In this document: piece by piece, positions 2,284 through 3,480 of the stretch
How positions within the stretch are numbered: position 1 is the first letter of the stretch
Layout of the letters: every line of letters begins with the position of its first letter
DNA from: a virus
Length of the DNA stretch: 26,094 bases
IMG/VR virus record: IMGVR_UViG_3300030406_001766
Location: 1-26,094 of that record
Direction: 5' to 3' (one strand)
The notes under the pieces: model-generated
Seen by the model: only the letters and a program-made list of their open reading frames with translations
What the model was told of the DNA's origin: nothing
Database searches by the model: none
Program-made: the position numbers and the translations under genes

Positions 2284-2299
2284 AGGAGGGCAACCTCCT
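2284..2299 (+). promoter_or_regulatory. GNRA-capped hairpin sequestering an AGGAGG sequence
   Basis: A perfect six-base-pair stem, AGGAGG (2284-2289) with CCTCCT (2294-2299), is closed by a GCAA tetraloop, the most stable GNRA type. It sits 12 bases after the stop of the preceding gene and four bases before a tRNA-like fold. The stem contains a consensus Shine-Dalgarno sequence but no start codon lies downstream at usable distance, so it is more likely a 3'-end stabiliser or docking hairpin than a ribosome-binding site. Confidence 0.6.
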
Positions 2300-2303
2300 T
2301 CCT

Positions 2304-2347
2304 GCGGGTGTAAATGGTAGACAGGGGTTCGATTCCCCTCACCCGCT
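2304..2347 (+). ncRNA. Anticodon-less tRNA-Gly-like element in capsid mRNA leader
   Basis: GCGGGTG (2304-2310) pairs with CACCCGC (2340-2346) as a seven-pair acceptor stem, followed by a possible discriminator base T2347. A canonical T arm occupies 2323-2339: five pairs (AGGGG/CCCCT) and the loop TTCGATT with TTC and A58 in place. Between the acceptor strand and T arm are only 12 bases, TA then AATGGTAGAC, which reproduces the conserved D-loop with its GG but without a D stem. There is no anticodon arm or variable region. The acceptor resembles my recollection of cyanobacterial tRNA-Gly. Acceptor plus T arm is the minimal RNase P substrate, so it may be an mRNA processing signal upstream of the capsid gene. 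A degenerate tRNA gene or attachment-site relic are alternatives. Confidence 0.75.
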
Positions 2348-2469: not shown

Positions 2470-3480
2470 ATGGCTAATGCCACACAAACCGTACTAGGTA
2501 CCCTGAATAAGGCGGTGACCAGCACCTCTGGTTCTAACGCCTATGATACCAAGTACTCAACTTATTTAAAACTGTTCAGTGGTGAATTGTTTAAGGCGTA
2601 TGAAAGCGCAACAATCGCACGTGACACAGTACAAAGACGTACCCTAAAGAACGGCAAATCATTGCAGTTCATCTTCACGGGACGCATGCAGGCGGCATAC
2701 CATACGCCAGGTGAACCTATCCTCGGATCGGGTGATCCTCCAGTAGCAGAGAAGACAATCGTCTGTGACGACCTGCTTATCAGTTCAGCTTTCGTCTATG
2801 ATTTAGACGAGACACTTGCACACTACTCTTTGAGGGGAGAGATCTCTAAGAAGATTGGTCATGCTCTAGCTGAAGCTTATGATAAGAAGATCTTCAGAAC
2901 GATTGCTCTAGCAGCTCGTGCTTCACATCCTATTACTGCAGCTCCAGGTCCAGAGCCAGGTGGTTCAACCATCAAACTCGGTACTGGTAAAGAGTATGAT
3001 GCTCAAGCATTAGTTGATGGCTTCTTCGAAGCTGCTTCAATTCTTGATGAAAAGAATGTACCTAAGCAAGGACGTACAGCTGTACTCTCTCCAAGACAGT
3101 ACTATGCTCTAGTCTCTCAGGTATCTACTAACATCCTGAATCGTGACTATGGTAATAAGCAAGGTAATCTAAACTCCGGCGAAGGTCTCTATGAGATTGC
3201 TGGTATTCAAATCAGACGTTCTAACAACCTACCATTCTTGGCAGGTACTGTTAATTCTCAGTCTGGTGAGAACAATGATTACTCTGGTGACTTCCAATAT
3301 CATTGCGGTCTTATCTATCAGAAAGATGTAGCTGGTGTTGTTGAAGCAATCGGACCTCAAGTACAAGTAACCTCTGGTGATGTATCAGTCCTTTATCAGG
3401 GCGATGTCATTCTAGGACGTTTGGCTATGGGAGCCGGAACCCTTAACCCTGCTGCTGCTATCGAATTCTCTAACCAGTAA
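2470..3480 (+). CDS. Major capsid protein (T7 gp10-like)
   Basis: At 336 residues it matches the length of T7 gp10A (345 residues) and reads as a cyanopodovirus HK97-fold capsid protein. Recognisable parts are the N-terminal arm with LKLFSGELFKAYE, the E-loop region GKSLQFIFTGRMQAAYHTPG (about residues 63-82), the spine helix region LRGEISKKIGHALAEAYDKK, and the A-domain stretch LSPRQYYALV. It builds the icosahedral head around the scaffold and then the packaged DNA. The start has no strong Shine-Dalgarno, so the structured leader may matter for its high expression. No slippery site or 10B-type extension is evident at the 3' end; the gene stops and a strong AAGGAG for the next gene follows at once. 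Confidence 0.95.
   Translation: MANATQTVLGTLNKAVTSTSGSNAYDTKYSTYLKLFSGELFKAYESATIARDTVQRRTLKNGKSLQFIFTGRMQAAYHTPGEPILGSGDPPVAEKTIVCDDLLISSAFVYDLDETLAHYSLRGEISKKIGHALAEAYDKKIFRTIALAARASHPITAAPGPEPGGSTIKLGTGKEYDAQALVDGFFEAASILDEKNVPKQGRTAVLSPRQYYALVSQVSTNILNRDYGNKQGNLNSGEGLYEIAGIQIRRSNNLPFLAGTVNSQSGENNDYSGDFQYHCGLIYQKDVAGVVEAIGPQVQVTSGDVSVLYQGDVILGRLAMGAGTLNPAAAIEFSNQ

Follow-up and report, generated by a model that had tools for sequence, protein, structure and literature searches.

Comparison of the capsid gene leaders of T7-like cyanopodoviruses identifies a slot immediately upstream of a conserved structured RNA (element B), and this slot holds either of two kinds of occupant, a conserved hairpin (hairpin A) or a tRNA or tRNA-like RNA, which have been interchanged repeatedly and are held in a fixed register with element B. 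By the same comparison the tRNA-like occupants have lost their decoding parts and retained the acceptor/T-arm fold, and all of the helices covary. Cyanopodoviruses of this kind rank with the most abundant T7-like phages of the ocean, and of all their late messages the capsid mRNA is the one needed most.

The tRNA-like element of the window

The DNA analysed (the window) is a 26,094-base fragment of a T7-like cyanopodovirus, in which the gene order runs from psbA through small genes to the capsid gene; the capsid gene and the leader features whose coordinates are given in this and the next section are all on the + strand. The open reading frame at 2470-3480 encodes a Gp10A-like major capsid protein (Pfam PF21703, E 1.4e-83; PHROG 267, head protein), so the tRNA-like element that an earlier note had placed in a capsid leader does lie in one. 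That note had described a 7-bp acceptor stem, a perfect T arm and a D-loop-like segment, with the D stem and anticodon arm gone, and re-reading of the sequence, the MFE fold and an Rfam match all agree with this description. The acceptor stem pairs GCGGGTG (2304-2310) with CACCCGC (2340-2346). Between its strands lie a 12-nt D-loop-like linker, TAAATGGTAGAC (2311-2322), and a T arm (2323-2339) whose 5-bp stem joins AGGGG (2323-2327) to CCCCT (2335-2339) around the T-loop TTCGATT (2328-2334). The re-read element thus spans 2304-2346; no CCA follows 2346, and the T at 2347 takes the discriminator position by register, with a predicted 3' cut after it. Since there is neither an anticodon arm nor a D stem, and only 12 nt separate the acceptor from the T stem, the element is incapable of decoding, as had been proposed. 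What it keeps, a 7 + 5 bp acceptor/T-arm stack and the T-loop, has the geometry of an RNase P substrate and appears to be exactly the minimal set of parts for one, in line with the same note.

The MFE fold reproduces the acceptor and T arm exactly (-19.9 kcal/mol, z -2.4; -34.2 kcal/mol, z -3.4 when the hairpin on the 5' side is included). When a 281-base leader stretch was searched alone, the Rfam tRNA family (RF00005) matched 2304-2347 with 32.1 bits (E 3.6e-5), above its gathering cut-off of 29 bits; a fast Rfam scan of the whole window did not pick up the element at these positions, and ARAGORN, run on the window, found no tRNA there. The mascRNA-menRNA family (RF01684) gave 21.6 bits, below its gathering cut-off of 42.5. 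A piece of a permuted tmRNA (RF04321) was also considered and was ruled out at 13.9 bits against a gathering cut-off of 47. The acceptor and T-loop are similar to those of the tRNA-Gly of NATL1A-7, and an independent contig (L007) carries the same tRNA-like element as the window. The best evidence against a chance fold comes from relatives, in which this position is invariably occupied by a tRNA, a tRNA-like RNA or one conserved hairpin.

The slot, its occupants and element B

We gathered capsid leaders from IMG/VR contigs, from named phages and from contigs holding the hairpin A loop. In about 255 distinct cyanopodovirus leaders element B is preceded, at fixed spacing, by a hairpin or by a tRNA or tRNA-like RNA; hairpin A occupies the slot in about 194 and a tRNA or tRNA-like RNA in about 61 (53 called by a script, which called 4 of 2560 shuffled controls, and 8 by eye), and no slot was empty among these leaders, all of sufficient length. 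Two bacterial contigs (L230 and L331) gave false element B matches and were excluded. Many of the leaders come from related metagenome contigs, so these counts are not independent and the tree-based number given below is the fairer one. Of 22 records, 15 have hairpin A, in one copy per genome; the remaining seven (P-SSP7, P-SSP3, S-TIP37, NATL1A-7, S-SBP1, S-CBP3 and G008) all have a tRNA or tRNA-like RNA at the slot. A covariance model of the whole leader (R1) found exactly one match in each of 19 records; in these, the capsid-leader RNA, consisting of the occupied slot plus element B, is present once per genome, before the capsid gene.

Element B is a conserved three-helix RNA (2348-2407 in the window). 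It begins with UUGG, followed by helices P1 and P2 (together 2348-2384), for which covariation in 172 distinct copies, RNAalifold on 63 diverse leaders and the MFE fold are the basis. P1 pairs 2350-2354 with 2380-2384 and has inner pairs 2357-2358/2376-2377, and P2 pairs 2360-2363 with 2368-2371 around a YRMG tetraloop, here TAAG (2364-2367). After the palindromic linker GTCTAGAC (2385-2392) comes P3 (2394-2407), supported by covariation, in which GTGG and CCAC enclose the conserved hexaloop GATAGA (2398-2403; GANAGA in relatives). P2 and P3 pair in 100% of the 172 distinct copies, compared with 40-71% for shuffled partners at the variable levels, and 19 of the 25 pairs predicted by RNAalifold show changes on both sides.

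Hairpin A has a conserved 15-nt loop, CACCUCANNGUCGGA, on a stem that is variable in sequence and covaries across the 194 leaders. Hairpin A was also considered as an RNA of host genomes; its pattern matches in bacterial genomes look like chance, with no cyanobacterium among the matches listed. At least 42 tRNA-like occupants, cultured examples being those of P-SSP7, P-SSP2, P-SSP3, S-TIP37, S-SBP1 and S-CBP3, lack the anticodon arm and keep the T-loop on an acceptor plus T helix of 11-13 bp with covarying stems. In these 42 copies the T-loop stays TNNRANN, and the acceptor shows A-T, G-C, T-A and C-G pairs at most levels; thus it is pairing that has been selected, and not decoding. The earlier note had made conservation of pairing in relatives the test of its claim, and the pairing is conserved. 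Other occupants have degenerate anticodon arms, and some are complete tRNAs: tRNA-Gly(UCC) in NATL1A-7 and five contigs, and a Trp-like tRNA in L574. An encoded CCA ahead of UUGG is absent from every slot tRNA that was read, which fits an RNase Z substrate. The idea of a specific mimic of tRNA-Gly fails, since occupants are Gly-, Trp- or Ile-like and many have no identity at all. The claim of a capsid-leader tRNA-like RNA therefore stands in that the element is tRNA-derived or tRNA-mimicking, and is changed in that the slot usually holds hairpin A and sometimes a complete tRNA, the element being one of several kinds of occupant. In one P-SSP7-type leader (L005) and others of that type coding and RNA structure overlap, since a small reading frame on the upstream side (..YRGVAYTR..) extends with its end and stop codon into the tRNA-like RNA.

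The two kinds of occupant are in the same register. Hairpin A has ten paired levels, then 1 nt, then UUG, with pairing of 67-100% that drops to 14% at level 11; with the two inner C-G pairs that RNAalifold predicts across a one-sided A, the total is twelve. Its loop lies 11 nt from UUG in 175 of 193 copies and 12 nt in the rest. In the tRNA-type leaders the T-loop lies 13-14 nt before UUG in 53 of 54 cases, with an acceptor plus T stem of 11-13 bp followed by 0-3 nt (12 bp and 1 nt in the window). Helix length and distance from element B are thus the same for both occupants.

On a tree of 247 capsid proteins the slot states need at least 34 changes, or 24 if only strong branches are counted. 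The nearest capsid with the opposite state is often 95-100% identical, and 99% for the window; one contig (L014) has an element B sequence identical to the window's and hairpin A in its slot. Traces of replacement can be seen within leaders. The GNRA hairpin that had been noticed beside the tRNA-like element is indeed present, on sequence and fold, at 2280-2302 (GGA(C)AGGAGG-GCAA-CCTCCT-TCC, loop GCAA at 2290-2293), and we now read it as a remnant of the usual slot hairpin: judged by its sequence, it is the hairpin A stem with the conserved 15-nt loop reduced to a GNRA tetraloop. Five tRNA-Gly-type leaders (L002, L023, L024, L078 and L086) have the same stem with short loops, so that where a tRNA is in the slot, as in these five and the window, the conserved loop is usually lost and the stem kept; another leader (L075) has both an intact hairpin A loop and tRNA-Gly. 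Loop loss beside a tRNA, and the coexistence of both intact in one leader, are expected if one occupant replaces the other. The probable order would run from hairpin A alone, through intact hairpin A with tRNA-Gly (L075) and a loop-less hairpin A stem with tRNA-Gly, to the GNRA-looped stem with a stripped tRNA seen in the window.

Possible processing of the late transcript at the slot

We think it rather probable that the slot serves as a substrate of host RNase P/RNase Z, at which the late transcript is cut and the 5' end of the capsid mRNA is made. The earlier note had suggested a processing or a stability signal for this mRNA, and processing appears to be the best fit to the comparative pattern. 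A late polycistronic transcript, presumably reading through this region, would be cut at the slot by host tRNA-maturation enzymes. RNase P, the presumed enzyme on the 5' side, would cut at 2303/2304 and trim the upstream message; RNase Z would cut 3' of the discriminator, at 2347/2348, and release a capsid mRNA starting UUGGC. This mRNA would fold into element B (P1-P3) from its second or third base, and such a structured 5' end should resist RNase E/RNase J, a protection that we infer from the fold. In leaders of the window's type the 3' end of the upstream message would be protected by the 5' hairpin that stays on it. Hairpin A would have the same function, possibly as an imitation of the acceptor/T-arm stack; that it is equivalent to a tRNA substrate is the weakest part of the model and is a guess, hairpin A being non-tRNA by sequence. 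A broader possibility, to which we give somewhat less than an even chance, is that the leader is a dedicated cassette in which tRNAs are repeatedly captured and stripped, hairpin A mimics a substrate of the same enzymes, and tRNA maturation controls capsid mRNA production.

RNase Z reads the acceptor and T arm. The acceptor-T stack is what RNase P measures (PMC4919913), and hairpins made up of acceptor, T-stem and T-loop are cut at the normal position by E. coli RNase P RNA (PMC11143913). In cyanobacteria RNase P and RNase Z are present, as is the 5'-3' nuclease RNase J, which is apparently essential (PMC10989914). All tRNA-type occupants retain the part that RNase P measures, and this part is enough for an RNase P model substrate. 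Because the register is fixed on the 3' side, where 12 bp and 1-2 nt lead up to UUGG, a cut near 2347/2348 is the likelier source of the capsid mRNA 5' end, and this end is likely to be found at about 2348 and not at 2304 as the earlier note had expected; 2304 may be a second end. Two observations are contrary to the processing model: in copies of the P-SSP7 type 2-3 nt, and not 1, separate the end from UUGG, and some acceptors have A at +1.

The fixed geometry could alternatively reflect a tertiary fold without cleavage. Under such an explanation, which is unlikely but deserves to be weighed, the occupant would be an architectural cap, whose helix, stable, about 12 bp long and bearing a special loop, would stack on P1 and shield the 5' region of the mRNA or present a binding face to a protein or the ribosome, tRNAs being simply handy stable helices. 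A cap would likewise need fixed spacing to UUGG, stable folds and covariation, and T-loops are docking modules; however, unrelated loop types are swapped with element B unchanged (compare L007 and L014), which disfavours specific docking. Moreover, any stable hairpin should serve as a cap, but only tRNA-like RNAs and one hairpin were found, and the complete tRNA-Gly genes in the slot would normally be excised.

It is a good deal less likely that hairpin A is itself a site for RNase III or RNase E, for which the tRNA-like RNAs substitute through RNase P/Z with the same outcome. In T7, the late transcript is divided by host RNase III cuts close to the capsid gene, so that the pieces carry hairpins at their ends, and the cut proposed here resembles these in being made by a host nuclease in a T7-like late transcript near the capsid gene; the slot differs from T7 RNase III sites in its fold, its short stems, its single site per genome and its interchange with tRNAs. 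Cyanobacteria carry one to three RNase III genes (PMC10989914), and the conserved 15-nt loop of hairpin A is not a T-loop. Against this, a stem of 10-12 bp is short for RNase III, and the identical register of both occupants hints at a shared ruler.

An element acting at the DNA level, such as a phage promoter, an attachment site or a captured tRNA that is here by chance, is disfavoured and very improbable. A promoter precedes gene 10 in T7-like phages, tRNA genes often serve as attachment sites and a tRNA-Gly is annotated at this position in NATL1A-7, but the stems covary, so that base pairing and not sequence has been kept, and tens of different tRNAs and tRNA-like RNAs are found in the slot; an attachment site would in addition retain the 3' half of the tRNA with its anticodon arm and match a host tRNA. 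That the element is a neutral remnant, a phage tRNA-Gly gene decaying after an internal deletion, is scarcely credible: the window's acceptor and T-loop do resemble those of NATL1A-7 tRNA-Gly with part deleted, but both stems are perfect and differ from it by paired changes (acceptor A-T to G-C, and in the T stem), anticodon-less copies are kept with compensatory changes in many lineages, and the slot is never empty.

If processing occurs as proposed, it would have several relatives among known systems. In tRNA punctuation, seen in mitochondrial transcripts and in bacterial tRNA-mRNA operons such as thrU-tufB, a tRNA adjoins an mRNA, and RNase P and 3' processing excise the tRNA and set the mRNA ends; unlike these cases, most slot tRNAs are non-decoding, a viral hairpin can take the place of the tRNA, and the downstream mRNA begins with a conserved structured element. 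The mascRNA and menRNA of MALAT1 and MEN-beta (RF01684) are tRNA-like RNAs without a working anticodon arm that are processed by RNase P and RNase Z, but they are eukaryotic and lie at the 3' end of a non-coding RNA, and common descent is not implied. The window element resembles the minimal RNase P model hairpins (PMC11143913) in keeping a 12-bp stack and a T-loop; those hairpins are synthetic, whereas the slot copies are natural, embedded in phage mRNA and without an encoded CCA. The tRNA-like structures of plant RNA viruses (PMC5723415) similarly mimic tRNA in viral RNA and are recognised by the host's tRNA enzymes, as we propose here, but they stand at genome 3' ends and are aminoacylated, whereas the slot is in an internal mRNA leader of a DNA phage and has no CCA.

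We found no earlier description of the slot or of element B in the open-access literature or in Rfam, and in its accessible part a 2010 survey of candidate structured RNAs names the cyanophage motifs manA, wcaG and PhotoRC-II and no capsid-leader motif. As far as we have found, the link between a non-Rfam element at the capsid mRNA start, a slot in which hairpin and tRNA are interchangeable (24-34 switches) and the stripping of tRNAs is new. Such stripping would represent selection that reduces tRNAs to the parts that tRNA-processing enzymes read, would give phage tRNA genes a purpose besides codon supply, and offers dozens of natural minimal-substrate variants for work on RNase P and RNase Z.

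Further features of the leader and neighbouring genes

Among 15 leaders searched with Rfam (4227 families) at the gathering threshold only tRNA and Glutamine-II were matched, neither hairpin A nor element B being recognised, and in nine variant loci searched at E up to 2 no family was found for either. In four leaders (L156, L101, L153 and L191) the element B that comes after hairpin A carries an insertion or is a variant form, for which no Rfam family accounts; a pistol-like ribozyme suspected by eye in the first of these was dropped for want of an Rfam match. Downstream of element B the window has a perfect palindrome, TCTCAACGTTGAGA (2428-2441, + strand), and an even-length perfect palindrome of variable sequence, 10-18 nt long, follows element B in 217 of 250 leaders, compared with 25 of 250 shuffled ones. 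Because its centre is self-complementary, a dimer contact or a dimeric DNA-binding protein is a more likely reading than a free loop. The linker between P1 and P3 is also usually a palindrome (CCGTCTAGACGG or CCGTCATGACGG, also CCGTAATTACGG, CCGTATATACGG and CCGTCGACGG).

Upstream in the window, a Glutamine-II riboswitch (937-992, 57.8 bits) precedes a Phage_OMP gene (1065-1424), and a hairpin with loop GCGGAAC (1671-1685) lies in the leader of an open reading frame (1718-2272) that has no match in Pfam or PHROG. Similar hairpins precede the same gene in NATL1A-7 and in two contigs (L172 and L187). Unlike the window, which has no repeat of hairpin A ahead of this frame, these two contigs have, ahead of the gene that precedes the capsid gene, a second hairpin A (at 1060 on the reverse strand of L172 and at 122 in L187), after which comes a large hairpin of another kind (TTCCTTGACC...GGTCAAGGAA); thus the module is usable elsewhere.
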